A stretch of 64,000 bases of DNA from Teichococcus aestuarii (GTDB taxonomy: Bacteria; Pseudomonadota; Alphaproteobacteria; Acetobacterales; Acetobacteraceae), in the NCBI RefSeq assembly GCF_003116135.1, contig NZ_PDOA01000002.1, positions 248,001 through 312,000 on the forward strand, written 5' to 3'. The translations under genes were made by a program, and so were the position numbers. A model generated the notes under the pieces. The model saw only the letters and a list, made by a program, of their open reading frames with translations. It was not told the origin of the DNA and made no database searches. Of this stretch, positions 33,416 through 50,311 are shown piece after piece. How positions within the stretch are numbered: position 1 is the stretch's first letter; each line of letters begins with the position of its first letter.

Positions 33416-34579
33416 CTACTTCACTCCTTCGATCACCGCCGCCACCACACGCTCGAGCTGCCCCTCATCCAGATAGGGATGCATCGGCAGGGAGAGGATG
33501 CGCTGGCAGAGCGCCTCGCTCACCGGCAGGGGCGGCGCCTGGCGCAGCCCTTCGGCATGGGCGGCGGCATAGGCCGGCTGGCGGTGCAGCGGCTTCGGGT
33601 AGTAGATGGCGCTGGGCACGCCGCGCGCCTGCATCGCCGCCTGCACGCGCGCCCGCGCCTCGGCATCCGGCAGCAGGATGGAATAGAGGCCCCAGGCGCT
33701 CTCCGCCCCCGGCATCTCGCCCGGCACCACCACATGCCCGGCGAGGTGCTGGCTGTAATAGCGGGCGACACGGGCGCGGTCCTTCAGCTCCTGCTCCAGC
33801 AGCGGCAGCTTGCAGAGCAGGATGGCGGCCTGGATGGTGTCCAGCCGGCCGTTCATGCCGGTGCGCTCCACCTCGTAGCGGGTCTTGCCTTCGCCATGGG
33901 TGCGGAGCGAGCGGTAGAGCTCGGCGCGGCCGGAATCGTTGGTCAGGATGGCGCCGCCATCGCCGTAGCAGCCCAGCGTCTTGGTCGGGTAGAAGCTGAG
34001 CGCCGCCGCATCGGCCCACTGGCCCAGGCGCTTGCCGTGCAGCGCGGCGCCGAAGGCCTGCGCGGCGTCATCGAGCGCGAACATGCCCTCGGCGCGGCAG
34101 ATCTCCTGGATCGCCGGCCAGTCGGCGGGGCGGCCGAACAGGTCGACGCCCACCACGGCGCGCGGGCGCAGCTTCCCTTCCGCCTTCACCAGCGCGATGC
34201 GGTGCTTCAGGTCGGCGAGGTCGATGTTGAAGCCGTCCTCCGCCACATCGACGAAAACGGGCGTGGCGCCCAGCACCAGCGGCACCTCGGCGGTGGCGGT
34301 GTAGGTGAAGGCGGGCAGGAACACCGCGTCGCCACGGCCGATGCCCTCGGCCATCATGGCGATCTGCAGCGCATCCGTGCCGGAGGAGACGCCGACGGCA
34401 TGGGCGCAGCCGGCGAACTCGGCCAGCTTCGCCTCCAGCTCGCGCACGTCCGGGCCGTTGATGAAGGCGCCGCTGTCGAGGATGGCGGCCACGCGGCGGT
34501 CGATCTCGGCACGGATCAGCGATTGCTGCGCCTTCATGTCGAACAGCCCGATCGGGCGCGGGGAGGTGTCGGCGTTCAT
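33416..34579 (-). CDS. PLP-dependent aminotransferase, DegT/DnrJ family, WbpE-like
   Basis: 387 aa from the ATG at 34579. The PLP lysine is Lys200 in SFYPTKTLGCYGDGGAI, and the ring-stacking region is LDDAAQAFGAALHGKR (Asp170/171). NGRLDTIQAAILL and LSLPMHPYLD match WbpE closely. WbpE makes UDP-GlcNAc3NA by amination of UDP-3-keto-GlcNAcA. The WbpA-like dehydrogenase gene lies just upstream, which supports that pathway. The partner oxidase (WbpB) and acetyltransferase (WbpD) are absent from the window. Last gene of the minus-strand glycan run. Confidence 0.87.
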   Translation of the reverse strand: MNADTSPRPIGLFDMKAQQSLIRAEIDRRVAAILDSGAFINGPDVRELEAKLAEFAGCAHAVGVSSGTDALQIAMMAEGIGRGDAVFLPAFTYTATAEVPLVLGATPVFVDVAEDGFNIDLADLKHRIALVKAEGKLRPRAVVGVDLFGRPADWPAIQEICRAEGMFALDDAAQAFGAALHGKRLGQWADAAALSFYPTKTLGCYGDGGAILTNDSGRAELYRSLRTHGEGKTRYEVERTGMNGRLDTIQAAILLCKLPLLEQELKDRARVARYYSQHLAGHVVVPGEMPGAESAWGLYSILLPDAEARARVQAAMQARGVPSAIYYPKPLHRQPAYAAAHAEGLRQAPPLPVSEALCQRILSLPMHPYLDEGQLERVVAAVIEGVK

Positions 34580-34634
34580 CGGTGGGCGTGCTCCGTCATC
34601 CGCGGGCCATGGGCCACCCCCTGGCGGGGGCGCC

Positions 34635-36119
34635 TCAGGCCTGAATGACGCGGTGATAGGCCGGTTCCGCCTGCGGAGGGAAATCACCGCGCGTTTCAAA
34701 GGGCAACGTGCCGGGCGGCAGGGCGCCGTCCGGCTGCACGGCGGCGTCGCGGTAGACGCCGCGCGTGTCCACCACCAGCCGCGCCGCCGCGCGCAGCGCC
34801 GCGAAGTCGATGCCCGGCTGCGGCGTGACGATCAGCACCGCATCCTGCGCCGCGACGAAATCCGGCGCCAGCGCCTGGCTCTCCAGCCGCAGCGGCCCGC
34901 CGCGCGCGCCGCGCTCCAGCGTGAAGCGGGGCACCAGCGGGTCGTGATAGGCGAGGCTGGCGCCGCGCCCGTCCAGCAGCCGCAGGATCTCGGCCGCGGG
35001 GCTCTCCCGCGTGTCCGGCACGCCGGGCTTGTAGGCCAGCCCCACCAGCAGCAGCCGCGCGCCGCGCAGGGCGCGGCCGCGCGCGTCCAGCGCATCCCGC
35101 AGGCGGGAGACGACATAGCCCGGCATGGCGTCGTTCACCCGGCCGGCCAGCTCGACGAAATCGCTCGGCACGCCCAGCTCGCGCGCCTTCCAGGCCAGGT
35201 AGTAGGGATCGACCGGGATGCAGTGGCCGCCGAGGCCGGGGCCGGGGCGGAAGGGCATGAAGCCGAAGGGCTTGGTGGCCGCGGCGTCGATCACCTCGTG
35301 CACGTCGAGGCCGAGGGCGTGGCTGATCCGCTTCAGCTCGTTGACGAGGCCGATGTTCACGGCGCGGAAGACGTTCTCGTAGAGCTTGGCCAGCTCCGCC
35401 GCGCGCAGCGAGGAGAGCGGCACCAGCCGCCCCGCCGCCACCGGCCCGTAGAGCGCCCGCCCCACGGCGAGGCAGGCCGGGGTGGCGCCGGCCAGCAGCT
35501 TCGGCACCCGGCCCACCGTGCCCTCCGGGTTGCCAGGGTCCTCGCGCTCCGGGCTGTAGAGGGCGAAGGCGTCGATGCCCGGCGTCAGCCCGGCGGCGCG
35601 CAGCGCGGGCAGCACGTAATCCTCGGTGGTGCCGGGATAGGTGGTGCTCTCCAGCGCCAGCACCTGGCCGGGGCGCAGATGCGGCCGCAGCGCCGCCAGC
35701 GCCGCCGCCACCGGGCCGAGATCCGGCTCCTTGTGGCGGCCGATCGGCGTCGGCACGCACAGGATCAGGGCGTCGCACGCCCGCGCCCCCTCCAGGCCGG
35801 TGCTGGCGGCGATGCCCGCCGCCGCCACCCGCGCATCCTCGATGCCGTGCACCGGGCTGCGCCCGGCGGCGATGGCCGCCACCTTCCCCGCGTCGATGTC
35901 GAAGCCCGAGACGGGGAAGCCGCACTCGGCGAAGCGCAGCGCCAGCGGCAGGCCGGCATAGCCCAACCCCACCACCCCCACCCGCGCCGTGCGCGCGGCG
36001 ATCCGCGCCACCAGCGCCTCGGCGACGAGGCCGGATATTTCCCTCTCCCAGCCCGGAACGGAGCGTTCCGGCGAATCCACCAGCGCGGCAGCGGCGCCGA
36101 AAGGGGAGAGGGCCGTCAT
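34635..36119 (-). CDS. Nucleotide-sugar dehydrogenase, UDP-GlcNAc 6-dehydrogenase type (WbpA-like)
   Basis: 494 aa, somewhat long because of a 40-residue N-terminal extension. NAD motif VGVVGLGYAGLPLA (about 47-60); the thioester cysteine is Cys300 in GPGLGGHCIPVDPYYLAW; ESTTYPGTTED, SPEREDPGN and VGLAYKPGVPDTRESPA are as in WbpA/WbpO. It oxidises C6 of a UDP-HexNAc to the uronic acid in two NAD steps. It lies 55 bases upstream of the WbpE-like gene and 1 base after the dehydratase stop region. The UDP-GlcNAc specificity is inferred from context. Confidence 0.85.
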   Translation of the reverse strand: MTALSPFGAAAALVDSPERSVPGWEREISGLVAEALVARIAARTARVGVVGLGYAGLPLALRFAECGFPVSGFDIDAGKVAAIAAGRSPVHGIEDARVAAAGIAASTGLEGARACDALILCVPTPIGRHKEPDLGPVAAALAALRPHLRPGQVLALESTTYPGTTEDYVLPALRAAGLTPGIDAFALYSPEREDPGNPEGTVGRVPKLLAGATPACLAVGRALYGPVAAGRLVPLSSLRAAELAKLYENVFRAVNIGLVNELKRISHALGLDVHEVIDAAATKPFGFMPFRPGPGLGGHCIPVDPYYLAWKARELGVPSDFVELAGRVNDAMPGYVVSRLRDALDARGRALRGARLLLVGLAYKPGVPDTRESPAAEILRLLDGRGASLAYHDPLVPRFTLERGARGGPLRLESQALAPDFVAAQDAVLIVTPQPGIDFAALRAAARLVVDTRGVYRDAAVQPDGALPPGTLPFETRGDFPPQAEPAYHRVIQA

Positions 36120-36120
36120 G

Positions 36121-38160
36121 TCAGGTCCTGGTCACGGGGGGCGCCCCCGGGTTGTGGTCGAATTCGGGGACCATCTCGGCCAGCCGGGCGAGGGCGGGCT
36201 TGGCCGCCCCCTGGCGCGCGGCGGTGGCGATGGTGTCGATCGCCGCGCCCACGGCGCCGGCATCGGTGGTGCGGGGCGTGGCCACGAGCAGGCCGGCGAA
36301 CCGCGTCGGCCGCGGCGGCTCCTGGCCGTGGAACAGCTCCTCGTAGAGCTTCTCGCCCGGGCGCAGGCCGGTGAAGCGGATCTCGATGTCCTCGTCCGGC
36401 CGCAGCCCGGCGAGGCGGATCATGCGCCGCGCCATGTCGACGATCTTCACCGGCTTGCCCATGTCGAGCACGAAGATGCCGCCATCGGCCAGTTCGGGCG
36501 GCTGGTCCTGCCGCTCCCCGGCGCCGACGACGCTGGCCTGCAGCACCAGCCCCACCGCCTCGCGCACCGTCATGAAGTAGCGGCGCATGTCGGGGTGGGT
36601 GACGGTGAGCGGCCCGCCGCGCTCGAGCTGGCGGCGGAACAGCGGCACCACGCTGCCGGTGGAGCCCAGCACGTTGCCGAAGCGCACCGTGACGCAGCGC
36701 ATGGCCTGCCCCTGGCCGCCCGCGCCGCTCCGCGCCTGCTTGTCCAGCGCTTGGCAGTACATCTCGGCCAGGCGCTTGGAGGCGCCCATCACGCTGGTCG
36801 GGTTCACCGCCTTGTCGGTTGAGATGAACACCATGGCGCGGCAGCCCACGGCGCGCGCGGCATCGGCGATGATGCGGGTGCCGAGCGCGTTGGTGAGCAG
36901 CCCCTCCAGCGGGTCGTTCTCCACCATCGGCACGTGCTTCAGCGCGGCGGCGTGGAACACCAGCTCGGGCCGCACCTCGGCCATCAGCGCGGCGACGCGC
37001 GCGGCGTCCCGCACATCGGCCAGCATGGCGCGTCGCGGCACGCCGGGGTGGCTCTCGGCCAGCTCCAGGTCGATCGAGTAGAGGGCGAACTCGCCATGGT
37101 CGAGCAGGGTGAGCTGCGCCGGGCCCAGCGCCGCCACCTGCCGCGCCAGCTCGCCGCCGATGGTGCCGCCCGCGCCGGTGACGAGCACGCGCCGCCCCTG
37201 CACCAGCCGCGCCATGCCCTCGCGGTCCAGCGGCACCTGCGGGCGGTCCAGCAGCTCCTCGATCGCCACCGGGCGCAGGTCGAAGCGGCGGCTGGCGGCG
37301 GGGGCCTCGCGCCGCGCCGGGTCCAGCGCCGTCAGCCGCGGGGCGCGCTTGACCAGCACGCCATGGCGGTCCGCCACGTCCAGCAGGGACTCCAGCTCCG
37401 GGCCCTGCAGGTCGGGGTCGGCCAGCACCAGGGTGGCGGGGGGGCGGCCCTCGGCGCGCAGCCGGTCCAGCACCTCCGCCGCCTCCTCGAAGCCGCCGAG
37501 GATCGGGTAGCCATGGATGCGCCGCCCCGCCGCGCGCGGCCGCCGCGCCAGGATGCCGACAACGCGGTAGCCCGGGCTGCGCTGCTGCAGCAGGGCGCGG
37601 ATGAAGAGGTCGGCGGCATCGCCCGTGCCGACCAGCAGCACCGGCTGGGCGGGCTGCGCCGCCGCCAGCCCCAGCGAGCCGTTGGTGCGCCGCTCCTGCC
37701 GCAGCCGCCCCACCACGCGCGGCGCCAGCAGGGCAGCCGCCTGGGTGCCGGCATGGATCAGCGCGAAGGCCGCGTTGTCCGGCCGCCAGGCGCCGAGCAG
37801 GGCGAGGCCGAGGGTGAACAGCACCGCGCCGCCCACCCCGGCGCCGACCACGGCGACGAGATCCTTCAGCGCGGCGAAGCGCCAGTATTGCTGCGGCAGC
37901 CGCACCGGCAGGCCGGCCAGCAGCAGCGCCGCCACCGCGCCCGGAATGGCGCCCAGCCACCAGAGCGGCGGGGGCGGCCAGCCGCCGGGCGAGGCCATCC
38001 AGACGGCGAGCGGCAGGGCGAGGGCGGCGAGCAGCGCGTCCAGGCCAAGATTCAGCAGAATGCGGGTGAGGGCCATGAAGGCGGCGTATAGGCCCCGGCC
38101 AGGGGTGGGTGAAGCGCCGCCCTGCATGCGGGCGCGTGGCAGGGCCTGCGTGCCGGTCAC
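36121..38160 (-). CDS. Membrane-bound NDP-sugar 4,6-dehydratase, PglF/WbpM/CapD family
   Basis: 679 aa, start overlapping the GT4 stop by ATGA. Four N-terminal membrane helices lie within residues 28-150, then a CoA-binding-like Rossmann domain (VLLVGTGDAADLF, about 173-187), then the catalytic SDR: TGAGGTIG (328-335), NALGTR, and Met458-x3-Lys462 in SVMGASKRLAEM. That Met in place of the SDR tyrosine is the mark of WbpM/PglF enzymes making UDP-4-keto-6-deoxy-GlcNAc. This product is the substrate of the broken PglE-like aminotransferase upstream. Full length. Confidence 0.9.
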   Translation of the reverse strand: MTGTQALPRARMQGGASPTPGRGLYAAFMALTRILLNLGLDALLAALALPLAVWMASPGGWPPPPLWWLGAIPGAVAALLLAGLPVRLPQQYWRFAALKDLVAVVGAGVGGAVLFTLGLALLGAWRPDNAAFALIHAGTQAAALLAPRVVGRLRQERRTNGSLGLAAAQPAQPVLLVGTGDAADLFIRALLQQRSPGYRVVGILARRPRAAGRRIHGYPILGGFEEAAEVLDRLRAEGRPPATLVLADPDLQGPELESLLDVADRHGVLVKRAPRLTALDPARREAPAASRRFDLRPVAIEELLDRPQVPLDREGMARLVQGRRVLVTGAGGTIGGELARQVAALGPAQLTLLDHGEFALYSIDLELAESHPGVPRRAMLADVRDAARVAALMAEVRPELVFHAAALKHVPMVENDPLEGLLTNALGTRIIADAARAVGCRAMVFISTDKAVNPTSVMGASKRLAEMYCQALDKQARSGAGGQGQAMRCVTVRFGNVLGSTGSVVPLFRRQLERGGPLTVTHPDMRRYFMTVREAVGLVLQASVVGAGERQDQPPELADGGIFVLDMGKPVKIVDMARRMIRLAGLRPDEDIEIRFTGLRPGEKLYEELFHGQEPPRPTRFAGLLVATPRTTDAGAVGAAIDTIATAARQGAAKPALARLAEMVPEFDHNPGAPPVTRT

Positions 38161-39380
38161 GGCAGCGGCGCCAGCCGCCGGTAGAGCCCGACGAGCCGCT
38201 CCGCCTCGCCCGCCCAGCCATAGCGGCCGAGGGCGGCGGCGCGGCCCCGCCCGGCCATCCCGGCCCGGCGCGCCGGGCTCTCCAGCGCGGCCACGGCGGC
38301 GGCGATGTCTTCCGGGTCGGCGCTGTCCACCAGCACGCCGTTGCCGGCATCCTGGATGATGGCGGCCACCTCGGTGGCGAAGGCGGGGGCGATCACCGGC
38401 AGGCCGGCCAGCATGCAGTCGAACAGCTTGTGCGGCAGGGCCAGGCGGTGGTTCTCCACCCCCGGCTGGAACAGCACCAGCCCGATATCGGCGGTGGCGG
38501 CCTCGGCCAGGGCGGCATCATGCGGCATCCAGCCGCGCCATTCCAGCCGCTCCGTGAGCCCCAGCGCCGCGGCGCGGGCGCGGAAATCGGCCTCCGAGCC
38601 ATCGGTGAAGCGGCCGATCAGCCGCAGCCGCGTGCCGGCCGGGCAGAGCGCCAGCGCGTCCAGCATGGTCATCGCGCCGCGCGCCCGGCCCAGCGCGCCG
38701 AGATGCACCAGCGTCAGCGGCCCTTCCGCGTGCCGGCGCGGCGCGACCGGCGCGGCGGCGGCGTAGTTGCGCACGGCGATGGTCTCGGGCGCGGTGGCGA
38801 AATCGGCGTCCAGCCCGTCCTTGGCCACCACCACCCCATCGGCGCGGCGGGCCATGGCGCGGCAGGCCAGGCGCAGCGCCGCCCGGCCGAGCGGGCGCAG
38901 CGGCGCCGGCAGCCGCCCATCCAGCCGGGAGGGATAGTGCTCGTGCACGTCCAGCACCACGCGGGCGCCGCTCTTGCGCGCCGCCAGCAGCGCGGCCAGC
39001 CAGGCATCCGGCTCGCTGGCGTGCAGCACCGCGGCGCCGGTGGCGCGCGCCTGCCGCGCCAGGGCGGGGATGCCCAGCAGCCGGCCACGCCAGCCCGGCC
39101 CCCGCCGGTAGCGGCGGATCGCCACCCCCGCATGCCGCTCCGGCGCCGCCTGCGCCTCGGCGGCGGCCGCGCCGGAAGCCATGGGCGCCGCCGCGCCGGA
39201 AGCCATGGGCGCCGCCGCGCTGGAAGCCATGGGCGCCGCCGCGCCGGGGCAGAGATGCATCACGCGCCAGCCGGCCTCCGCCAGGGCGGCGCCCTCCTTG
39301 CCCACGACGCGCAGATCGGCCGGCGGATGGGCGGCGGAGAGCATGCACACCAAAGGGGCGGGCCGCCCGGCGGCCGGCAT
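38157..39380 (-). CDS. Glycosyltransferase family 4 with internal 8-residue repeats
   Basis: 407 aa. GT-B fold: N-terminal LVCMLSAAHPPADLRVVGKEGAALAEAGW; donor-binding half with RGAMTMLDALALCPAGTRLRLIGRFTDGS, EWRGWMPHDAALAEAATADIGLVLFQPG and the NHRLALPHKLFDCMLAGLPVIAPAFATE region (Glu/His of GT4). An insert near residues 47-72 is three copies of AAAPMASG-like octapeptides encoded by a 24-bp tandem repeat. It overlaps wecB by one base and the dehydratase by four. Acceptor and donor unknown. Confidence 0.88.
   Translation of the reverse strand: MPAAGRPAPLVCMLSAAHPPADLRVVGKEGAALAEAGWRVMHLCPGAAAPMASSAAAPMASGAAAPMASGAAAAEAQAAPERHAGVAIRRYRRGPGWRGRLLGIPALARQARATGAAVLHASEPDAWLAALLAARKSGARVVLDVHEHYPSRLDGRLPAPLRPLGRAALRLACRAMARRADGVVVAKDGLDADFATAPETIAVRNYAAAAPVAPRRHAEGPLTLVHLGALGRARGAMTMLDALALCPAGTRLRLIGRFTDGSEADFRARAAALGLTERLEWRGWMPHDAALAEAATADIGLVLFQPGVENHRLALPHKLFDCMLAGLPVIAPAFATEVAAIIQDAGNGVLVDSADPEDIAAAVAALESPARRAGMAGRGRAAALGRYGWAGEAERLVGLYRRLAPLP
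39166..39248. repeat. 24-bp in-frame tandem repeat, 3 copies plus a partial
   Basis: Units at 39166-39189, 39190-39213 and 39214-39237 are identical except one C-to-T in the third; a partial fourth follows to 39248. Each unit adds eight residues (Ala-Ala-Ala-Pro-Met-Ala-Ser-Gly) to the GT4 protein without changing frame, so copy number may vary between strains. Confidence 0.9.
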
Positions 39381-40492
39381 CAGGCCACCTCGCGCAGATG
39401 CGGCGCCAGCGTCTCGGCCAGGTGCGCCACCATGCGCGCCCCCGCCCGGCCATCCCAGAGCGGGATCGGCCGCGCCGCCGGCCAGTGCCCGGCGAGCACG
39501 GCGGCCACCGATTCGGCCAGCCGGTCAGGCGGCACCAGGCGGTTGGAGCCGGCCTCCAGCGTCACCGGCCGCTCGGTGGAGGGGCGCAGCGTCAGGCAGG
39601 GCAGGTCGAGGGCCGTGGCCTCCTCCTGCACGCCGCCGCTGTCGGTGGCGACCAGCCGCGCCCGCGCCAGCAGGCCGAGGAAGTCGAGATAGCCCAGCGG
39701 CGGCAGCACCCGCACGCCGCGCGGCAGGGCGAGCCCCGCCTCCTGCAGCCGCTTCGCCGTGCGCGGGTGCATCGGCCACACCAGGGGCAGCGCCGCGGCG
39801 GCCACGCCCAGCGCCGAGAGCAGCCGCGCCAGGACCGCCGGATGGTCGACATTGGCGGCGCGGTGCAGGGTGACGACGCCATACTCCTCCGGCACCAGCC
39901 CCTCCGGCAGCGGCCGCGCGCGGGCGGCGGGCAGGCGGGCCAGCAGCGTGTCGATCATGGCGTTGCCGACGGCGCGCACCGCGCCGGGGGCGTGGCCATC
40001 CGCCAGCAGCCGCGCGGCGGTCGCCTCGTCCGGCGCCCAGAGCAGGTCGCTGACGGCATCGATGGCGCGGCGGTTGATCTCCTCGGGCATGTCGCGGTCG
40101 CCGCAGCGCAGCCCGGCCTCCAGATGCGCCACCGGGATGCCGAGCTTGCGCGCCGCCAGCGCGGCGGCCAGCGAGCCGTCGACATCGCCGGCGACCACCA
40201 CCATCGCCGGGCGCCAGGCCGACCAGAAGCCGGCGCAGGCCATCATGGTGCGGCCGGTGACGGCGGCGTGCCCGCCACCGCCGGCGATGCCCAGCGCATG
40301 GTCGGGCTGCGGCAGGCCGAGATCGGCCAGGTGGGTGCCGAACATCGCCGGGTCGTGGTGCTGGCCGGTGTGCAGCAGCAGCGGCCGGCACAGGCCGGGG
40401 CGCGCCGCCAGGGCGTGCCACAGCGCCGCCAGCTTCGGCAGGTTGGGCCGCGCGGCGGCCACCAGATGCAGCTCGGGGAGGGAATTGCTCAT
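39380..40492 (-). CDS. wecB: UDP-N-acetylglucosamine 2-epimerase (non-hydrolysing), WecB family
   Basis: 370 aa from the ATG at 40492, overlapping the upstream GT4 by ATGA. Catalytic residues seen: Asp103 in VVVAGDVDGSLAAALAA, Glu125 in VAHLEAGLRCGD, the acidic pair in PEEINRRAID (137-138), and His in VVTLHRAANVDHP. TDSGGVQEEATALDLPCLTLR is the UDP-binding end. It makes UDP-ManNAc, or acts on UDP-GlcNAc3NAcA if the neighbours form a WbpI-type pathway. The motif VAGDVDG replaces the more common VHGDTTT, so specificity may differ. Confidence 0.85.
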   Translation of the reverse strand: MSNSLPELHLVAAARPNLPKLAALWHALAARPGLCRPLLLHTGQHHDPAMFGTHLADLGLPQPDHALGIAGGGGHAAVTGRTMMACAGFWSAWRPAMVVVAGDVDGSLAAALAARKLGIPVAHLEAGLRCGDRDMPEEINRRAIDAVSDLLWAPDEATAARLLADGHAPGAVRAVGNAMIDTLLARLPAARARPLPEGLVPEEYGVVTLHRAANVDHPAVLARLLSALGVAAAALPLVWPMHPRTAKRLQEAGLALPRGVRVLPPLGYLDFLGLLARARLVATDSGGVQEEATALDLPCLTLRPSTERPVTLEAGSNRLVPPDRLAESVAAVLAGHWPAARPIPLWDGRAGARMVAHLAETLAPHLREVA

Positions 40493-41736
40493 GCGGCGGC
40501 CAGCGCCTCCAGCGTGGCCGCCGGCGCCGCGGCCTCCTCGACGATGCCGGCGAACTGGCTGGCCAGCAGGCGGCGGTCCCAGCGGCGCACCGCCTGGTCC
40601 CGCGCGCTGCGGCCCATCACCTGGCGCAGGGCGGGGTTGTCCGCCATCCAGCGCAGCGCCTGGGCCATCGCTGCGGCATCGCCGGGGGGAGTGGCGATGC
40701 CGCAGGGGCCCTCGGCCAGCAGCCGGGCTGCGCGGCCGGAGAGATTGGCCACCACCGGCAGGCCGGCGGCCAGGTAGTCCATCAGCTTGTTGGGCGCCGT
40801 CCACTCGGCGAATTCCGGCACTGGCGCCAGGCACTGCACGCCGAGCTGCGCGCCGGCCAGCAGCGAGGCCAGCTTCCGCTTCGGCATGGCGGGCAGGAAG
40901 GTGACGTTGTGCAGCCCGCGCTCCGCCGCCTGCGCGCGCAGGCGCGGCTTCTCGCCGCCCTCGCCCACCAGCAGGATGCGGATGCGCCGCTCGCCCCCGG
41001 CGCGCAGCAGGGCGGCCGCCTCCAGCAGCGAATCCAGCCCGTTGGCGCGGCCATGCGCGCCGGCATAGACGGCCAGCACCTCCCACGGCGCCACCTCCGC
41101 CGGGCGCCAGGGGGCGACCTGCGGGCCGAACAGGTCGAGGTCGCAGCCATTCGGCACCACGTGCACGCGCTGGGCCGCGGCGCCGCGGCCCAGCGCCGTC
41201 TCGGCCATGCCCTCGCTCAGCGCCACCACGGCGGCGGCCTGGCGGCAGGCGGCGTCGGCCAGCCTCTCCATGCCGGAGAGCGCCCAGCCGGGCACGCCCC
41301 CCAGGGCGCGCGGCAGCTCCGGCCAGGGGTCGCGCATCTCGTAGAGGAAGGGGGTGCCGCGCAGCCGCCGCGCCAGCAGCGCCGGCAGCACCACGGTGAG
41401 CGGGGTGGAGCTGGCCACCACCAGGTCCCACCGGCCGCCAAGGGCAAGGTGCGCGGCGCGGGCGGCGTAGCGGCCGAAGGACAGGCCGCGCCCGCCGAGG
41501 CCCTGCGCGTTGCCGCAGCCGATGTCGAACTCGACGATGCGCAGGCCGCGCACCAGCCCTTCCCGCCGCCCGCCACGGAAGGCGCCGGCCAGGCCGGTCA
41601 CCGCCCCCTCGTAGCGGCCGCAGGCGAGGGTGACGTGGTGGCCGCGCGCCGCCAGGGCATGGGCCAGCGCGTGGCTGCGGGTGGCGGTGGCGCCGGCCGG
41701 GCCGGAATAATGCTGGTGCAGGTAGAGGATGCGCAT
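40489..41736 (-). CDS. Glycosyltransferase family 4 (WbuB-like)
   Basis: 415 aa from the ATG at 41736, two bases after the aminotransferase stop. MRILYLHQHYSGPAGATATRSHALAHALAARGH is the N-terminal GT4 half. The donor site is YAGAHGRANGLDSLLEAAALL, VGEGGEKPRLRAQA, then EFAEWTAPNKLMDYLAAGLPVVANLSG with the Glu of the EX7E type. The order of motifs resembles WbuB, a FucNAc/6-deoxy-HexNAc transferase, which would fit the 6-deoxy amino sugar pathway here. Specificity is inferred. Confidence 0.87.
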   Translation of the reverse strand: MRILYLHQHYSGPAGATATRSHALAHALAARGHHVTLACGRYEGAVTGLAGAFRGGRREGLVRGLRIVEFDIGCGNAQGLGGRGLSFGRYAARAAHLALGGRWDLVVASSTPLTVVLPALLARRLRGTPFLYEMRDPWPELPRALGGVPGWALSGMERLADAACRQAAAVVALSEGMAETALGRGAAAQRVHVVPNGCDLDLFGPQVAPWRPAEVAPWEVLAVYAGAHGRANGLDSLLEAAALLRAGGERRIRILLVGEGGEKPRLRAQAAERGLHNVTFLPAMPKRKLASLLAGAQLGVQCLAPVPEFAEWTAPNKLMDYLAAGLPVVANLSGRAARLLAEGPCGIATPPGDAAAMAQALRWMADNPALRQVMGRSARDQAVRRWDRRLLASQFAGIVEEAAAPAATLEALAAA

Positions 41737-41738
41737 GC

Positions 41739-42876: not shown

Positions 42877-43043
42877 GTCCTGGCCCCGCCCGGAGAACAG
42901 CAGCACCCCCGCCCGACGGGCAGAGGCGTCGCCGATCGATCTGCTCTGGAATGCCACCATCGCTCCGATCACTTTTTTGTGAACATGAGCGTAGCCAATC
43001 AAACTCCGGCTGTGGCTTCAAGCCCTAAATTCAACCTCAGGTT
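42877..43043. other. AT-richer gap between PglC-like and PglE-like genes
   Basis: This 167-bp gap is clearly poorer in GC than its surroundings (for example CACTTTTTTGTGAACATGA near 42970-42990 and CTAAATTCAACC near 43026). An ATG at 42960 with GGAGCG before it could add 28 residues to the aminotransferase. No gene for a PglD acetyltransferase fits here. It could hold a promoter for the downstream glycan genes or be a deletion or transfer junction. Confidence 0.4.
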
Positions 43044-43664
43044 CTAAAATTCCGTGGATCTGCCAGCGGCCCTGTGGGTGGCCGGGCTGTCCAGCCGCGG
43101 CATGGTGGCGTGGCCGGGCGCGCTCACGCCGCGGCCGGAGAGCAGGATGCGCAGCGTGCCGAGGGCGGCGCGCAGGTCGGCCAGCGCCGTCACGCGCCCG
43201 GCGTAGCGGGCATCCAGCTCCAGCCGCTCGGGCCAGGGCAGGGCGTTGCGCCCGGCCGCCTGCGCCGCCCCCGCCAGCCCTGGGCGGACGCGCAGCCGCA
43301 GGCGCTGGCGCGGCGTGTAGCGGGGCAGGTAGGCCATGGGCAGCGGGCGCGGCCCCACCAGGCTCATCTCGCCGCGCAGCACGTTGACGAGCTGCGGCAG
43401 TTCGTCCAGCGCGCTGGCGCGCAGGCGGCGGCCGAAGGGGGTGAGGCGCTCCGCATCCTCGCCCGGGCCGTCGCGCATGCTGCGGAACTTCAGCAGGGTG
43501 AAGGGCCGGCCATCGCGCCCCGCCCGCTCCTGGCGGAACAGCACCGGGCGGCCGAGCGACAGCCGCACCGCCAGCGCCACCCCCAGCAGCAGCGGCGAGA
43601 GCAGCAGCAGCAGCGCCGCCGAGAGCAGCACATCCCCGAGTCGCTTGCCGAAACGTTCATACAC
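43044..43664 (-). CDS. Short sugar-1-phosphate transferase, PglC-like phosphoglycosyl transferase
   Basis: 206 aa from a GTG at 43664 that overlaps the ligase stop by 8 bases. This is the minimal monotopic PGT size, like PglC and without the extra helices of WcaJ. One N-terminal re-entrant helix (LLSAALLLLLSPLLLGVAL); RQERAGRDGRPFTLLKFRSM; catalytic Asp87-Glu88 in ALDELPQLVNVLRGEMSLVGPRPLP; C-terminal GVSAPGHATM, which parallels the PglC ending. It would place a sugar phosphate on undecaprenyl phosphate and start the glycan. The last dozen residues run into AT-richer DNA. Confidence 0.88.
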   Translation of the reverse strand: MYERFGKRLGDVLLSAALLLLLSPLLLGVALAVRLSLGRPVLFRQERAGRDGRPFTLLKFRSMRDGPGEDAERLTPFGRRLRASALDELPQLVNVLRGEMSLVGPRPLPMAYLPRYTPRQRLRLRVRPGLAGAAQAAGRNALPWPERLELDARYAGRVTALADLRAALGTLRILLSGRGVSAPGHATMPRLDSPATHRAAGRSTEF

Positions 43665-44883
43665 GGCGGGCTCCCACTCCGATCGAAAGCGCCAGACCCA
43701 GGGCGAACCAGACCATCCGGTTGCCGAGGTCGGTCGAGACCATCGCCGCCAGCGCCACCGGCAGCACCAGCGCGGCGATGCGCGCCACGCGCGCCGGCGC
43801 CACCTGGCGGCAGCGCAGCAGCAGCAGCAGACCGCCGCCGCCGAAGGCCAGCAGCCACAGCAGCAGGCCGGGCACGCCGCCCTCTGCCCAGGCTTCCAGC
43901 AGGTGGTTGTGCGGGTAGAGGCCGCGCCGCTCGCCATGCCCGGCGGCGGGGGTGAAGCCGCCCGTGCCCAGGCCCCAGGGCAGCGTCTCGGCCCCCCAGG
44001 CCAGCGCGGCGCGCCACAGGGCGGGGCGGGCGGAGCCTTCCAGGTCGCCCTGGGTCAGCCGCTCCAGCGTGCGCAGGCCGGAGGCGGCGTCCTCGTCCAG
44101 CAGCAGCGTGGCCAGGGCGGCGGCGGCGCCGAGGGCGGCCAGCGCCACCCAGCCCAGGGCGCGGCGCGGCGCCCCGGCCGACCAGCAGCGCAGCGCCGGG
44201 ACCAGCAGCACCGCCAGCACCAGCGCCGCCAGCGCCGTGCGCCCGCCCGGCAGCAGCGAGGCGGCCGCCAGCAGCGCCGTCAGCCCGCCCCAGAGCAGCC
44301 GCCCCGCCCAGCCGCGCGACTCGACCAGCCGCACGGCGGAAAGCCCGGCGGCGCAGGCGATGGCCAGCCCGGCGAGCTGGTACTGCACGCGCAGCATGTC
44401 CGGGCCGGCGGTGCCGGCCATGCCGCCCAGCACCACCTGCCCGGTGGCCAGCCCCACCGCCACCGACACCGCCACCAGCGGCCCGCTGGCCAGGGTGACG
44501 GCCACCGCCAGCCGCCGCGCCCCGGCATCAGCGCCCACCGCCAGCCCGGCCAGCAGCATCACCGGCGCCAGCAGCACCACCTCCGGCAGCTTGGCGGCCA
44601 GGATGGCGCGGCTGCCGCTCCAGCTTCCCGCCAGCACCAGCCACAGCCACAGCAGCGCCGCCCCCGCCAGCGGCGGCCCGAGCCCCGGATGCAGCCACCA
44701 GCGCCGCGTCAGCCCCAGCACCGCCAGCAGCGGCAGCAGCAGCGCGCCGGCCAGCAATGTCAGGTCCACCGGAAGGGCGGCGCCGAGCGGGGTGGATTTC
44801 AGCGCCCCCGCCAGATGCAGGATGGCGGCGGCGGCGCCCGCCAGGCTGCCCAGCGCCGCGCTGTCGATGCGCGGCGCGCTCAC
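43657..44883 (-). CDS. O-antigen ligase/Wzy-like membrane protein
   Basis: 408 aa, about 11 membrane helices. The conserved periplasmic loop ETLPWGLGTGGFTPAAGHGE followed by GLYPHNHLLEAWAEGGVPGLLLWLL (about 300-345) is the Wzy_C/WaaL/PglL signature with HNHLLE. Members ligate or polymerise undecaprenyl-linked glycans, and some transfer them to proteins. Which of these applies cannot be decided from sequence. It lies between Wzz-like and PglC-like genes with overlaps on both sides (4 and 8 bases). Confidence 0.82.
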   Translation of the reverse strand: MSAPRIDSAALGSLAGAAAAILHLAGALKSTPLGAALPVDLTLLAGALLLPLLAVLGLTRRWWLHPGLGPPLAGAALLWLWLVLAGSWSGSRAILAAKLPEVVLLAPVMLLAGLAVGADAGARRLAVAVTLASGPLVAVSVAVGLATGQVVLGGMAGTAGPDMLRVQYQLAGLAIACAAGLSAVRLVESRGWAGRLLWGGLTALLAAASLLPGGRTALAALVLAVLLVPALRCWSAGAPRRALGWVALAALGAAAALATLLLDEDAASGLRTLERLTQGDLEGSARPALWRAALAWGAETLPWGLGTGGFTPAAGHGERRGLYPHNHLLEAWAEGGVPGLLLWLLAFGGGGLLLLLRCRQVAPARVARIAALVLPVALAAMVSTDLGNRMVWFALGLALSIGVGARRV

Positions 44884-45731
44884 CGCCGCCGCCGCCCCTC
44901 CCGGGGCGGGCCGCGCAGCAGCACCAGGCAGGCGCCGAGGAAGGCGCAGGCGAGCGGCACCGCCACCGCCAGCATGGCCAGCAGCAGCGGCCGGTTGGGC
45001 AGCGAGGGCCGCAGCTCCACCGCCGGGCCGGAGACCAGACGCGCCGCCACCGCGCTGTCGGCGCCGATCACCAGCAGGGCACGCTGGTGCTGCGCCAGCA
45101 GCTCGAACAGGGGGGTGCGCAGGTAGATGTCGCGCTCCTGCGCCAGCCGGGCCTCCAGCGTGGCGACGCGGCGGCGCACCAGCGCCATCAGCTCCTCACG
45201 CACCCGCCGCTCGGCGAAGTCGTGCAGCCGCGCCAGCAGCTCCAGCGCCAGTTCGCGCCGCGCATGCGCCAGCTCCAGCGTCCAGGTGACGGAGGCGAGC
45301 GACTGGGTGACGGACAGGCTCCGTTCCAGCCAGCGCTGCGCGTCATCGGCGTCCGGCGGGCGGTCCAGCCCCAGCGCGGCGCGCAGCGGGGCGAGCGGGC
45401 CATCGGCGCGCGACTCGGCCAACGCCTCCGCCAGCGGCGTCTCGCGCAGCAGCATGGCGGTGGCCTCGGGGCTGCGCAGCGCCGCGAGGTAGATGGCGAA
45501 ATTGCCGCCCGGCCGCGTGTCCAGCAGGTTGCCCGGCGCTAGGCTGTTGGCCGAGATCAGGGTGGAGACGGCGATGCCGGAGGTCTCGGCCGGCGCCACC
45601 ACCGCCGCCGCCACATAGGCGCGCGGCCAGCCGAGGATCAGCGCGGCGCCCAGGCCCCAGCCCAGCAGCACCGCCAGCAGCAGCCAGCGCCAGAGGCGCC
45701 ATACCCCTCTCAGAAGCTGGTCGAGCGGCAT
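44880..45731 (-). CDS. Wzz-type chain-length determinant / polysaccharide co-polymerase
   Basis: 283 aa. Two flanking membrane helices (about 14-36, RWLLLAVLLGWGLGAALILGW, and 245-268, LLLAMLAVAVPLACAFLGAC) surround a periplasmic helical domain with ARRELALELLARLHDFAERRVREELMALVRRRVATLEARLAQERD, a coiled-coil segment. A Pro-rich stretch PSLPNRP precedes helix 2. There is no cytoplasmic kinase domain. It probably sets glycan length with the neighbouring ligase/polymerase. Confidence 0.82.
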   Translation of the reverse strand: MPLDQLLRGVWRLWRWLLLAVLLGWGLGAALILGWPRAYVAAAVVAPAETSGIAVSTLISANSLAPGNLLDTRPGGNFAIYLAALRSPEATAMLLRETPLAEALAESRADGPLAPLRAALGLDRPPDADDAQRWLERSLSVTQSLASVTWTLELAHARRELALELLARLHDFAERRVREELMALVRRRVATLEARLAQERDIYLRTPLFELLAQHQRALLVIGADSAVAARLVSGPAVELRPSLPNRPLLLAMLAVAVPLACAFLGACLVLLRGPPREGRRRR

Positions 45732-45758
45732 CGCGTCGGTGGCGGGCGGGCCACGGCC

Positions 45759-47513
45759 TCAGCCCAGCTCGATCTGCGTGGCCAGGCAGGTGATGGGCGC
45801 CAGGGCCCGCACGGCCAGCACCGGGCAGGGGCGCACCACGCCATAGGCGGGGCTCTCCCAGCCCTCTTCAAGGGTGATGTGCAGCGGCGCGTCGGCAGTC
45901 ACCCGCAGCCGGTCCGGGCCTTCCACCCCGCCGGGGCGGAGCCGCCATGCGCCGGGCCCCAGCCGCCAGCGCAGCGTCAGCGCATGGAAGGGTCCGCTCA
46001 CCGTGTCCAGCACCGTCCAGCTGCGCCCCTCGGCCCGGACCTGGCGGTGATGCCGGTTGCCCCGGCCGTCGCGCAGCGCCGCGCCGTCGGGCAGCGGGCG
46101 CAGGCGGGGCCAGCGGGCGAGCAGGAAGCGCGACAGGCGCGGCATCGGCTCCCGCCCGTCGAAGGTGATGGTGTTGTGCGCGGCGGCGGCGGGGAAGTAG
46201 TCCAGCCACCATTCCTGGCCGGCGGGGGGGTTGTAGGCGCCGGTGCCGGCATCGGTCAGCACCGGGCGGTCGCCGTCCCACAGCTCGAAATGCAGCATGT
46301 CGGCCTGGCCGGGGCGGAAGCGCAGCGGGCCGGTGCGCAGCAGGGCGCGCGCCCCCGCCACCGCCCAGCCGCGGCTGCCGGTGGCCACCCATTCGGCCGG
46401 GCGCAGCGCCGCCGGCAGCCCTTCCGGCAGGCCCAGCCAGCGGCAGCCCGGCTCCTCCGCGAAGCCGGCCGATTCGCCGGCGAACAGGCGCATCGCCCGC
46501 TCCACGCTGCCGCGCGCGTCGGCCACGCCGCCGGCCGAGAGATCGGCCAGGGCCGAGCCGTCCTGGTGGCCCAGCGCCGGCAGCGCGCCCTGGGCCGAGA
46601 CCAGCCGCGCCAGCCAGCGCGCCGCCGCCGCCGCGCGGGCGGTGAAGGGCTCGGGCAGCGGCGGCGCGCCCTGGTGGCGGCGCAGCGCCTCCACCACCGA
46701 GAGCACGTCGAGCAGCAGCCGGTGATAGCCGGTGGAGAGCTGGGCGAAGCCGCCATCCGGCGCCACCAGCCGCGCCAGGGCGGCGGCCAGCTCCTGGCCG
46801 GCGCGGCGGGCCATGGCCGCGTCCCCCAGCAGCCAGCCGCAGGCCAGCAGCCCGGCGGGCTCGCTGATGCTGTGGTTGTTGTCCTGCGCCCGGGCATAGG
46901 CGCGGGTGGCCAGGATGCGGCGGGCATGCAGCGCCAGCAGGTCGCGCGCCGCCGGGCCGGGGCGGCGCAGCCCGGCCAGCATCAGCGCCAGGGCCAGATG
47001 CAGCACGCGCAGCGCCGCCTCCTGCCCGCAGGCCCAGTTCGGCCCGCGGAAGGGCGGGTTGGCGTCGGTCCAGGCGGCAAGGCGCGCCTCCAGCCGGGCG
47101 CGGTGGCCTTCCTCCGGCCACAGCCGCGCCGCCTGCACCAGCAGCGGCAGGCAGGCCAGGCGGTTCGCCTCCCAGACCGGGCGCACATCGCCCGGGTTGA
47201 ACAGGTCCAGCGCCAGGGCCGGCATGTCGGCGGCGAAGGGGCCATGGCAGACGGCGCCGGGCAGCGACTCCAGCGCGGCCCGCAGCCTGGCCTGCGCCTC
47301 CGGCGCCAGCACGGGCGGCGGCGGCAGCGCGGCGAAGCCCAGCAGGCCCACCGGCGGCGGCGGCGCGTCGCGCAGCGCCTGCTGCGGCAGCCCGGCGGCC
47401 TGCCGCAGCCGGTGCAACCCATACTGCGCCAGGGCATGGGGCCCGAGGCGGCAGGCCACGTCCGCCAGCAGCCACATCCGCGACGGCTCAGGATTGCGCG
47501 CTTGGATCGCCAT
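45759..47513 (-). CDS. Heparinase II/III family protein
   Basis: 584 aa from the ATG at 47513; an ATG at 47477 is possible. The (alpha/alpha) toroid N-terminal half ends with ARAQDNNHSISEPAGLLACG, where NNH is the catalytic Asn-His, and FAQLSTGYHRLLLDVLS (Tyr). The beta-sandwich half has DMLHFELWDGDRPVLTDAGTGAYNPP and HNTITFDGREPMPRLSRFL, as in Hepar_II_III proteins. Such genes in polysaccharide clusters trim or modify uronic-acid-containing polymers. No signal peptide is obvious, which is unusual for a lyase acting outside. It heads the minus-strand run. Confidence 0.85.
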   Translation of the reverse strand: MAIQARNPEPSRMWLLADVACRLGPHALAQYGLHRLRQAAGLPQQALRDAPPPPVGLLGFAALPPPPVLAPEAQARLRAALESLPGAVCHGPFAADMPALALDLFNPGDVRPVWEANRLACLPLLVQAARLWPEEGHRARLEARLAAWTDANPPFRGPNWACGQEAALRVLHLALALMLAGLRRPGPAARDLLALHARRILATRAYARAQDNNHSISEPAGLLACGWLLGDAAMARRAGQELAAALARLVAPDGGFAQLSTGYHRLLLDVLSVVEALRRHQGAPPLPEPFTARAAAAARWLARLVSAQGALPALGHQDGSALADLSAGGVADARGSVERAMRLFAGESAGFAEEPGCRWLGLPEGLPAALRPAEWVATGSRGWAVAGARALLRTGPLRFRPGQADMLHFELWDGDRPVLTDAGTGAYNPPAGQEWWLDYFPAAAAHNTITFDGREPMPRLSRFLLARWPRLRPLPDGAALRDGRGNRHHRQVRAEGRSWTVLDTVSGPFHALTLRWRLGPGAWRLRPGGVEGPDRLRVTADAPLHITLEEGWESPAYGVVRPCPVLAVRALAPITCLATQIELG

Positions 47514-47593
47514 AAGGAAACTGATAATCCAGTCATCACTTTTTAGCGAGCATTTCGTGGCCCCGCCTGTTGCGGGAAAAAGGCCCCTTCCGC

Positions 47594-50311
47594 ATGCCGC
47601 CTTCCGGTGCGCCGTCTCGTCCTCTCCGCTGGCCGGCCCGCCTGACCCGCCTGACGCTGGCGGGCCTGCTGCTGCTGCCCTCCCCCGCCCCGGCCCAGCC
47701 CGGCCCGCCCGGCGGCCAGGTGCCGAGCCCGCTGCTCTCGCCCCCCGCGCTGCCCTCCACCCTGCCCGGCGGCATGCCGCTGCCCAGCCTGCCGCCCGCC
47801 TTGCAGCAGGACATCCTGCAACGCATCCTGGAGGCCTCGGGCGGGCGCGCCCCGGCGCCTCTCCCCGCCACGCCGCCACTGGCGTCCCCATCGGCCGCCC
47901 ACCCGCCGGCCGCCCCCCCGCCGCCCCCGGCGGCGTCCGCCGAGCCGCTCTCGAACGCCGAGGCCTTCTTCGCCGCGCGGCTCGAGCAGCCGCTGCGGCA
48001 GTTCGGCTACGACACCTTCCGCGAGCTGGCCTCGGTGCCGCCCGCACAGGCGGCGCTCGGCACCCTGCCGGATGACTACATCCTGGGGCGGGACGACGAG
48101 ATCCTCGTCTCCATCCGCGGCCGCACCCGGCAGAACCACGCGCTGCGCATCAGCCGCGACGGCACGCTGCTGCTGCCGGACCTGCCGCCCTTCACCGCCG
48201 CCGGCCTCAGCCTCGGCGCGCTGCGCGCCGAGATCGAGCAGCGGGTGGCGCGGGAGCTGGGCGGCTCGGAGGCCTTCGTCTCGGCCGGGCAGCTGCGGCA
48301 GATCGGCGTCTTCGTGGCGGGGGAGGTGGTGCGGCCGGGGCTCTACAGCCTGCCCGCCATGGCCTCGGCGCTGGAGGCGCTGGCCCTGGCCGGCGGCGTG
48401 AGGAAGACCGGCACGCTGCGCGCCATCCGCGCCGAGGGGCCGCGCGGCAGCCGCGTCATCGACCTCTACGCCGTGCTGGGCAGCGAGCCCGGCGCGCCCG
48501 ACCTGGCGCTGCGCGAGGGGGAGCGGCTGGTGGTGCCGCCGCTCGGCGCCGCCGTGGCCGTGGCCGGCGAGGTGACGCGGCCCGGCATCTACGAGCTGCC
48601 CGCCGGCGCCGCCGCCTTGCCGCTCGAATCGCTGCTGCGGCTGGCCGGGCAGGCGCTGCGCCCGGCCGGCAACCGCTTCCTCCTCCAGGGCACGGATGCG
48701 CAGGGCCGCCGCGTCTTCTCCGAGGTGGGCGCCAATGCCCGGCTGCGGCGCGGCGACGCGCTGCTGGTGCAGCCGGGCACCGATGTCGCGGCCGGGCAGG
48801 TGCGGCTCTCCGGCCATGTGGCCACGCCGCTGCTGCGCGCCGCCGGCAGCGGCGGGCTGCGCGGCCTGCTCTCGGACCCGCGGCTGGTGAAGCCCGACCC
48901 CTATGTGCGGATGGGCCTCGTCTGGCGGGTGGACCCGGCGACGCGGGTGCGCCGCTTCATTCCCTTCGACCTCGGCCGCGTGCTGCAGCGCCAGGCCGAC
49001 ATGCCGCTGCGCGAGGCGGACGAGGTGATCCTGCTCTCGCAGGCGGAGGTGCTGTGGCTGGCCAGCCCGCCGGTGCAGCGCGCCCTGCGCGGCGAGGCGG
49101 CCGCCACGGCGCCCGGCGCGCCGGACTGCCCCGCCCTGCTCGCCCTCGCCACCGCCGCCCGCGCCTCGCCCGCCCGCTTCGCCCATGCGCGGGGCGCGGG
49201 CTTCCCGGATTTCGGCGCGCCGCCCTGCCCGCAGGTGTTCCTCGACCACCCGGCGCTGCTGCCCTATCTGCTCGACCAGTCGGTGCTGATCGCCGGCGAG
49301 GCGCGGCTGCCCGGCCTCTACCCGGTCCTCGACGACACCGGGCTCGACCAGGTGCTGGGCGCCGCCGGCGGCGTGACGGACACGGTGGACCTCTCCGCCG
49401 TCGAGCTCTCGCGCGAGCCGCTGGAGCAGGCGGGCGCCATCCCGCTCAGCCGCGTGCTGCTCGACCTGCGCAGCGGCAACTTCACCGCCGTGCGGCTCTC
49501 GCCGCGCGACGCCATCCGCCTGCCGCGCGGCTTCGGCGACCGCGACAGCGGCCCCGTCACCCTGGCGGGCGAGTTCGTGCGGCCCGGCATCTACGACATC
49601 CGCCGCGGCGAGCGCCTCTCGGAGCTGATGACGCGGGCGGGCGGGCTCTCGCCGCAGGCCTACCCCTATGGCACCGTCTTCACGCGCGAGAGCGTGCGGC
49701 AGCGGCAGCAGGAGGGCTTCGCCCGCACCGCGCGCGAGCTGGAGCAGAGCCTGATCCAGGTGGCGGCGGGGCAGGCCATGGCCGGCAGCAAGGCCGGCGG
49801 CATGGATCTCGGCGGCGCCATCACGGCGGGGCGGGAGCTGGCCGGCGCGCTGCGCGAGGCGCGCGCCGCCGGGCGCATGGTGGTGGAGGCCAACCCCGTC
49901 ATCCTCGCCGCGCGGCCGGAGCTGGACGTGCTGCTGGAGCCGGGCGACCTGATCATGGTGCCCAAGCGCCCGAACGAGGTGACGGTGGTGGGCGCCGTGC
50001 TGAACCCCGGCAGCCTGCAATTCTCCACCGGCTGGAAGGCGGCGGAATATGTGCGCGCCTCGGGCGGCACGCAGCGCTTCGCCGATGGCGGGCGCGCCTT
50101 CGTGGTGCTGCCGAACGGGCAGAGCGTGCCGGCCGGCCTCGGCGCCTGGCAGGCGGGCGGGCCGCCCATCCCGCCCGGCAGCCTTGTCGTCGTGCCGCAG
50201 GACCCCAGCCCCTACGAGACCTGGGGCTTCGTGCGCGACCTGACGCAGACGCTGGGGCAGATCTCCATCAGCGCCGCCGCCCTGGCGGTGATCTCCCGGC
50301 AGACGCGCTGA
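47594..50311 (+). CDS. SLBB-domain outer-membrane polysaccharide export protein (Wza-like)
   Basis: 905 aa from the ATG at 47594; a TTG at 47570 is a weaker option. A signal peptide (LTRLTLAGLLLLPSPAPA) is followed by a long Pro/Ala-rich region to about 110. A poly-export domain starts at about 140 (LPDDYILGRDDEILVSIRGR), and then come at least four SLBB repeats (FVAGEVVRPGLYSLPAM, AVAGEVTRPGIYELPAG, IAGEARLPGLYPVL, LAGEFVRPGIYDIRRGERL, VGAVLNPGSLQFSTG). No lipobox Cys is seen. Much longer than Wza (about 380 aa). Divergent from the glycan genes and likely their exporter. Confidence 0.9.
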   Translation: MPPSGAPSRPLRWPARLTRLTLAGLLLLPSPAPAQPGPPGGQVPSPLLSPPALPSTLPGGMPLPSLPPALQQDILQRILEASGGRAPAPLPATPPLASPSAAHPPAAPPPPPAASAEPLSNAEAFFAARLEQPLRQFGYDTFRELASVPPAQAALGTLPDDYILGRDDEILVSIRGRTRQNHALRISRDGTLLLPDLPPFTAAGLSLGALRAEIEQRVARELGGSEAFVSAGQLRQIGVFVAGEVVRPGLYSLPAMASALEALALAGGVRKTGTLRAIRAEGPRGSRVIDLYAVLGSEPGAPDLALREGERLVVPPLGAAVAVAGEVTRPGIYELPAGAAALPLESLLRLAGQALRPAGNRFLLQGTDAQGRRVFSEVGANARLRRGDALLVQPGTDVAAGQVRLSGHVATPLLRAAGSGGLRGLLSDPRLVKPDPYVRMGLVWRVDPATRVRRFIPFDLGRVLQRQADMPLREADEVILLSQAEVLWLASPPVQRALRGEAAATAPGAPDCPALLALATAARASPARFAHARGAGFPDFGAPPCPQVFLDHPALLPYLLDQSVLIAGEARLPGLYPVLDDTGLDQVLGAAGGVTDTVDLSAVELSREPLEQAGAIPLSRVLLDLRSGNFTAVRLSPRDAIRLPRGFGDRDSGPVTLAGEFVRPGIYDIRRGERLSELMTRAGGLSPQAYPYGTVFTRESVRQRQQEGFARTARELEQSLIQVAAGQAMAGSKAGGMDLGGAITAGRELAGALREARAAGRMVVEANPVILAARPELDVLLEPGDLIMVPKRPNEVTVVGAVLNPGSLQFSTGWKAAEYVRASGGTQRFADGGRAFVVLPNGQSVPAGLGAWQAGGPPIPPGSLVVVPQDPSPYETWGFVRDLTQTLGQISISAAALAVISRQTR

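Follow-up and report, generated by a model that had tools for sequence, protein, structure and literature searches.

A candidate locus for a diacetylbacillosamine-primed exopolysaccharide in Teichococcus aestuarii and related Acetobacteraceae

What glycan is made by a gene cluster that combines enzymes of bacillosamine synthesis with enzymes of uronic acid synthesis, and is the product secreted or attached to lipid or protein? The question is raised by a glycan locus of Teichococcus aestuarii (Acetobacteraceae, Roseomonas group) at 33416-50311 of a 64-kb window, the whole stretch of DNA that was analyzed (positions 248,001 to 312,000 of contig NZ_PDOA01000002.1). The source genome is a 5.2-Mb draft in 106 contigs, and the GC content of the locus is ~73-78%. 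A first-pass annotation of this DNA had proposed a glycan primed by a 4-amino-4,6-dideoxy sugar and containing a 3-amino uronic acid, with lipid, polymer or protein as the acceptor. We examined the locus by profile, sequence and structure matching, and followed its genes through a sample of 150 family genomes, source genome (G000) included. The gene set reads as encoding a secreted or capsular polymer. More specifically, we give a probability of roughly 0.6 to the reading that the locus makes and exports a Wzy-polymerized exopolysaccharide, probably one containing uronic acid, in which N,N'-diacetylbacillosamine (diNAcBac) is the first sugar of the repeat unit.

Eleven of the locus genes lie on the minus strand and are ordered, in the direction of transcription, as those for the lyase-fold protein, the Wzz-like protein, the Wzy_C protein, a phosphoglycosyl transferase (PGT), a PglE-type DegT aminotransferase, glycosyltransferase GT4a, a 2-epimerase, glycosyltransferase GT4b, PglF, a dehydrogenase and a WbpE-like DegT aminotransferase; the gene for an SLBB exporter is divergent from them. 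In the proposed scheme, PglF would dehydrate UDP-GlcNAc and the PglE-type enzyme would aminate the product, and an unlinked PglD-like enzyme may acetylate the resulting amino sugar in trans. The PglC-type PGT would then put diNAcBac-1-phosphate on undecaprenyl phosphate, and GT4a and GT4b would add the next sugars, one of them probably N-acetylmannosaminuronic acid (ManNAcA) supplied by the 2-epimerase and the 6-dehydrogenase. A Wzx would flip the unit, after which Wzy and Wzz would polymerize it. The SLBB exporter, acting with an unlinked YjbH-type barrel, would export a polymer that the lyase-fold protein may trim. Every reaction of this scheme is predicted, and the sequenced strain would have to remain capable of them despite a frameshift in one gene; the identities of the genes by homology, their co-occurrence and their order are observed directly.

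The priming enzyme carries much of the argument. It is a PGT of the minimal PglC type and has the Asp-Glu dyad; against PDB sequences it scores 152 bits with PglC (8e37) and 106 bits with WbaP. Stretches of the form GRNAxxW and GVSxxGxAT are common to it and PglC and differ in the three other PGTs of the genome. The WcaJ and WbaP profile models do match it, but below their cut-offs, and it groups with PglC; membership in the WcaJ group, the case that the first-pass annotation had set against its own proposal, is not seen. Some PGT match (E<=0.001) occurs in 112 of the 150 genomes, and a close PGT in 32 (at least 146 bits, the next score being 119). This bit-score cut-off and that for the PglE-type gene were chosen after the gaps in the scores were visible.

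Enzymes for the supply of the priming sugar accompany this PGT. The PglF-type dehydratase has Met458 and Lys462 within an SVMGASK motif, and its best PDB match is WlaL, which we take to be PglF (251 bits; next protein 132). In a PF02719 search of the genome it scores 348 bits and seven other proteins score 22-42, leaving it the sole strong match. The C-terminal half of the PglE-type protein scores 166 bits with 1o61/4ztc, presumably Campylobacter jejuni PglE, followed by a sugar aminotransferase (157) and perosamine synthetase (138). A one-base frameshift near 42597, within a C6 run, interrupts the gene, and in all 30 relatives for which the fetched stretch contains both halves, these adjoin in frame. 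The frameshift is either an assembly or sequencing error or a real strain-specific loss. Across the family the PglE-type gene is found in 33 genomes (at least 327 bits, next score 154), namely all 32 PGT genomes compared with one of the 118 others (G075, 77% complete). A single protein of the source genome passes the TIGR03570 cut-off. It has a PglD_N domain and is encoded on the same contig, ~60 kb from the locus, and its best solved relatives are the pilin glycosylation protein 4m98 and a perosamine N-acetyltransferase. This PglD-like gene (E<=1e-25) is present in 29 of the 32 PGT genomes compared with four of the 118 others, and in those four it shares a contig with a DegT gene whose product is 35-39% identical to the PglE-type protein. 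Fisher p values for these co-occurrences are tiny, and they overstate independence because the genomes are related.

The same genes are physically linked in some distant relatives. We tallied 20 of at least 33 non-Acetobacteraceae loci among the matches listed for the PGT; PglF is present in 12 of them, the PglE-type gene in seven, the PglD-like gene in nine and all three in three (L081, L087 and L117). L081, from an Actinomycetota metagenome-assembled genome (MAG), and L087, from an Acidimicrobiia MAG, have PglF, PglE-type, PglD-like and PGT genes in one row, and the run at L081:6326-16962 goes on with epimerase, heparinase-type and GT4a genes. Together with the PglC-like character of the PGT and its co-occurrence with the PglE-type and unlinked PglD-like genes, these rows support the bacillosamine half of the first-pass proposal, priming by a 4-amino-4,6-dideoxy sugar. 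The gene that follows the L081 run encodes a zinc alcohol dehydrogenase fused to a GFO_IDH_MocA domain.

The remaining genes bear on the fate of the glycan. The Wzz-like protein, the SLBB exporter, an unlinked YjbH and the lyase fold favor a secreted polymer over protein glycosylation. A model of the lyase-fold protein (pLDDT, the predicted local distance difference test score, of 89.6) gave its best Foldseek matches with heparinase III, PL33 and PL17 lyases, with E values down to 1.6e-17 and TM-scores of ~0.5-0.6; further polysaccharide lyases and human dermatan sulfate epimerase were also matched, and no sequence match was found in the PDB. The characterized relatives of this protein act on uronic acids, so that a uronic acid in the polymer can fairly be inferred, and the modeled fold indicates that the protein probably cleaves (or epimerizes) a uronic-acid polymer. 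The exporter has only Poly_export and SLBB domains in Pfam, with no Wza_C or GfcC detected. YjbH (PF06082) is encoded elsewhere in the source genome, unlinked to the locus; in 16 of 31 relatives it lies in the fetched stretch, and in 15 of 31 directly beside the SLBB gene, a count that refers to one protein cluster of which one member was checked by Pfam. The other late-acting genes recur in the fetched stretches of the 31 relatives (lyase 26, SLBB 24, Wzz 28, Wzy 30), some of the misses being contig ends, and GT4a was matched at E<=1e-40 in 30 of 31 genomes searched. Since the same gene order is repeated in relatives, the arrangement of the locus is more than chance. As a separate observation, these exporter relatives adjoin YjbH; the table of PMC9603273 places YjbH near Class 1 and Class 2 outer-membrane polysaccharide export (OPX) genes and near none of its Class 3 OPX genes.

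Table 1. Genes of the glycan locus, with positions in the 64-kb window
Feature	Position	Strand	Support or remark
WbpE-like DegT aminotransferase	33416..34579	-	PDB 4qgr 342 bits, WbpE 279
UDP-HexNAc 6-dehydrogenase (WecC/Cap5O/TviB-like), facultative	34635..36119	-	TIGR03026 360 bits
PglF-type UDP-GlcNAc 4,6-dehydratase	36121..38160	-	PF02719 3e-103
GT4b glycosyltransferase	38157..39380	-	Pfam; conserved in relatives
Non-hydrolyzing UDP-HexNAc 2-epimerase (WecB/WbpI class), facultative	39380..40492	-	TIGR00236 240.8 bits, over cut-off
GT4a glycosyltransferase	40489..41736	-	Pfam glycosyltransferase domains; conserved companion
PglE-type DegT aminotransferase, frameshifted	41739..42876	-	Two halves, different frames
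PglC-type monotopic phosphoglycosyl transferase, putative priming enzyme	43044..43664	-	PF02397 6e-50
Wzy_C protein, polymerase (favored) or ligase	43657..44883	-	PF04932 2.7e-13
Wzz-like polysaccharide co-polymerase	44880..45731	-	PF02706 E 0.0011, under cut-off
Hepar_II_III_C protein, polysaccharide-lyase fold	45759..47513	-	PF07940 8e-22
Poly_export/SLBB polysaccharide exporter (OPX-like), 905 aa	47594..50311	+	PF10531 4e-31, PF02563 6e-9

The identity of the uronic acid may be approached through the two facultative genes. The epimerase of the sugar block is present in 19 of the 32 PGT genomes; it is absent, with GT4a and GT4b adjacent, in seven (G124, G044, G141, G095, G072, G015 and G106), and six were left out of the split (G035, G120, G090, G097, G115 and G050). 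A dehydrogenase is found in all 19 genomes with the block epimerase compared with one of the seven without it (G015). In the whole sample such a gene occurs (E<=1e-60) in 31 of the 150 genomes, five of them without the PGT, with at most 10 candidates scored per genome. The best solved relatives of the locus dehydrogenase are Cap5O (191 bits), presumably a UDP-ManNAc enzyme, and a hypothetical UDP-ManNAcA dehydrogenase. A 2-epimerase and a 6-dehydrogenase are what the UDP-ManNAcA route needs (WecB/WecC chemistry), and the co-variation of the two genes suggests that ManNAcA may be the sugar supplied.

Several observations weigh against a diNAcBac-primed, ManNAcA-containing exopolysaccharide. This assembly has a frameshift in the PglE-type gene, and the PglD-like gene is missing from three PGT genomes, G120 and G050 (80-82% complete) and G097, which is given as 100% complete. 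The trait set is clade-restricted, and its co-occurrence counts are not independent events. In 10 of the 19 genomes with both facultative genes the dehydrogenases are only 42-54% identical homologues outside the block, which makes their link to this glycan uncertain there. No block gene was found near the ~50% dehydrogenase paralogues at L176 and L177, nor near a third that was fetched, L178 (from G015). Neither a lyase nor an SLBB gene was found beside Wzz in G141 and G072. The Wzz match itself is weak, and no Wzx-type protein was recognized among the locus genes, no genome search for Wzx having been made. The other adverse points are taken up with the alternatives to which they relate.

In one such alternative, the dehydrogenase, the WbpE-like protein and a WbpI-like epimerase would produce a sugar of the ManNAc3NAcA type, and WbpB and WbpD would be encoded outside the locus. 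Among solved structures WbpE is closely related to the WbpE-like protein, and the epimerase scores best in the PDB with UDP-GlcNAc3NAcA 2-epimerases (8sxv 235 bits, then 4neq 206 and 1f6d 115), which leaves room for a 3-amino uronic acid. Moreover, in nine of the nine PGT genomes with a dehydrogenase at least 71% identical (the window included), this gene adjoins the WbpE-like gene, and the source genome has nine GFO_IDH_MocA matches elsewhere, none of them classified, so that one could be a WbpB. However, the WbpE-like gene (E<=1e-70) is present in 144 of the 150 family genomes, including genomes of ~1.9 Mb and 112 of the 118 that lack the PGT, mostly beside PglF and without such a dehydrogenase in the stretch. 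We inspected its surroundings in 30 PGT-less genomes that were hand-picked for enough flank (L130-L139 and L144-L163): a PglF homologue (37-69% identity) is directly upstream in 27, and a WecA-like gene divergent from PglF is within the stretch in 24. Being nearly family-wide and adjoining PglF, the WbpE-like gene looks like an ancestral PglF neighbor not peculiar to this glycan, of which it is probably not a part; its candidacy as a dedicated component was rejected. Neither WbpB nor WbpD was recognized in the locus, no genome search aimed at WbpD having been made, and the two-enzyme ManNAcA route would suffice. The 3-amino uronic acid of the first-pass annotation is not borne out by these results, and we regard it as unlikely.

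A different polymer would result if the priming sugar kept a free 4-amino group, as in FucNAc4N, and was paired with an acidic sugar to give a zwitterionic product. The PglD-like gene was found in none of 72 Acetobacteraceae stretches (51 core or block stretches and 21 named loci), and lies only elsewhere in the genomes. WcfS, a small PGT with UDP-FucNAc4N as its substrate, is described in the accessible text of PMC12550135. The presence of the PglD-like gene in most PGT genomes, its linkage to PGT relatives in outgroup loci and the solved relatives of its product point the other way. Once the PglD-like gene was found, an unacetylated 4-amino sugar was rejected as the leading candidate, and the chance of a zwitterionic polymer is slim.

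O-linked glycosylation, with the Wzy_C protein serving as a PglL-type ligase that transfers the glycan to proteins, is also very unlikely. The idea stays alive because the fold matches WaaL: the only PDB match of the Wzy_C model at E<=0.001 in Foldseek is WaaL 7tpg (E 4.5e-4), which leaves Wzy and WaaL indistinguishable by fold. DiNAcBac glycans on proteins are known according to the accessible text of PMC10653937. However, the locus has a single Wzy_C protein, with the Wzz-like protein encoded beside it, no PglL-specific Pfam domain was detected in it at E<=0.001, only the general Wzy_C domain, and the exporter, YjbH and lyase fold fit a polymer.

Tentatively, and with the odds still against it, Acetobacteraceae may have an undescribed, near family-wide unit, composed of a WecA-like gene divergent from PglF and the WbpE-like gene, for the synthesis of a second amino sugar linked to lipid. 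In the Roseomonas group the single PglF would then feed both this ancient product and an exopolysaccharide, primed with diNAcBac, that was added later. We also considered that the WbpE-like gene is GnnB of a lipid A containing 2,3-diamino-2,3-dideoxyglucose (GlcN3N), its best solved relative being 4qgr, presumably from Brucella, but its conserved neighbor is PglF. GlcN3N in lipid A, with proposed gnnA and gnnB genes, is described for Granulibacter bethesdensis, another member of the family, in the accessible text of PMC8036547.

Most of the first-pass gene assignments were recovered by profile or structure-sequence matches: those of the PglF-type, minimal PglC-type, WbpE-type, UDP-sugar dehydrogenase, 2-epimerase, Wzy_C and divergent SLBB proteins. 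Its PglE-type protein is represented by a homologue, although the one-base split of the gene had been overlooked, and its Wzz holds as a Wzz-like match, albeit one under the Pfam cut-off. The lyase-fold protein and the two GT4 glycosyltransferases were absent from its list. Pfam and profile scans recognized no PglD-, WbpB-, WbpD- or Wzx-type protein among the locus genes, and an Rfam scan gave no matches. Start codons of the locus genes are inferred, and high GC yields many shadow open reading frames (ORFs); an ORF at 36116-38350 was rejected as a gene, as it is an out-of-frame shadow with no Pfam match. At ~75% GC, long shadow frames of this kind may mislead gene calling here.

Among the matches listed, the closest named carriers of the same PGT are Roseomonas, Pseudoroseomonas, Falsiroseomonas, Neoroseomonas, Caldovatus and other Acetobacteraceae. 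For 13 of the 31 relatives a single fetched stretch contains both the sugar block and the PGT, and for the other 18 it does not; G050 has its PglE-type gene on a separate contig. Three relatives have IS4/5-type transposase genes (DUF4096) that adjoin PglF or separate it from the WbpE-like gene (L043:2541-3449, L046:14536-15168 and L051:18165-18944), and such elements are a possible reason for the split blocks.

No publication on this Acetobacteraceae locus turned up in the literature searched, which covered few subscription papers. The closest known system is Bacillus subtilis Eps (EpsC/N/M, EpsL, EpsD). Compared with Eps, the Acetobacteraceae locus has an added epimerase, dehydrogenase and lyase-fold protein, its PglD-like gene is unlinked, and export would be of a Gram-negative kind with an SLBB exporter and a YjbH barrel. 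What the two share, as predicted for the Acetobacteraceae locus, is the supply of UDP-diNAcBac by enzymes of the PglF, PglE and PglD types and the priming of a secreted polysaccharide by a small PGT of the PglC type; priming of the biofilm exopolysaccharide with diNAcBac by EpsL is described in the accessible text of PMC10653937. Campylobacter Pgl (PglF/E/D/C) has the same kinds of sugar-nucleotide enzymes and PGT by sequence; unlike it, our locus has no recognized oligosaccharyltransferase, and has a polymerase-like protein and an exporter instead. The initiation of polysaccharide A in Bacteroides fragilis by WcfS likewise pairs a small PGT with a 4-amino-4,6-dideoxy sugar nucleotide (accessible text of PMC12550135), but WcfS uses unacetylated FucNAc4N, whereas a PglD-like gene co-occurs here. 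Finally, an SLBB-type OPX with a YjbH-type barrel resembles Wzx/Wzy systems with an OPX protein and a beta-barrel (Myxococcus WzaX/S/B; GfcD/YjbH), as given in the accessible text of PMC9603273; the difference here is a 905-aa Poly_export/SLBB protein with no Pfam-detected Wza_C or GfcC, whose relatives lie beside YjbH.

The case of the WbpE-like gene warns that genes found at the border of a glycan cluster may be part of an older, adjacent pathway. If the favored reading is true, a missing pathway enzyme such as PglD would be findable by co-occurrence rather than linkage. DiNAcBac priming of secreted polysaccharides would then occur beyond Bacillus, in a Gram-negative family and, in recognizable form, in an Actinomycetota MAG.

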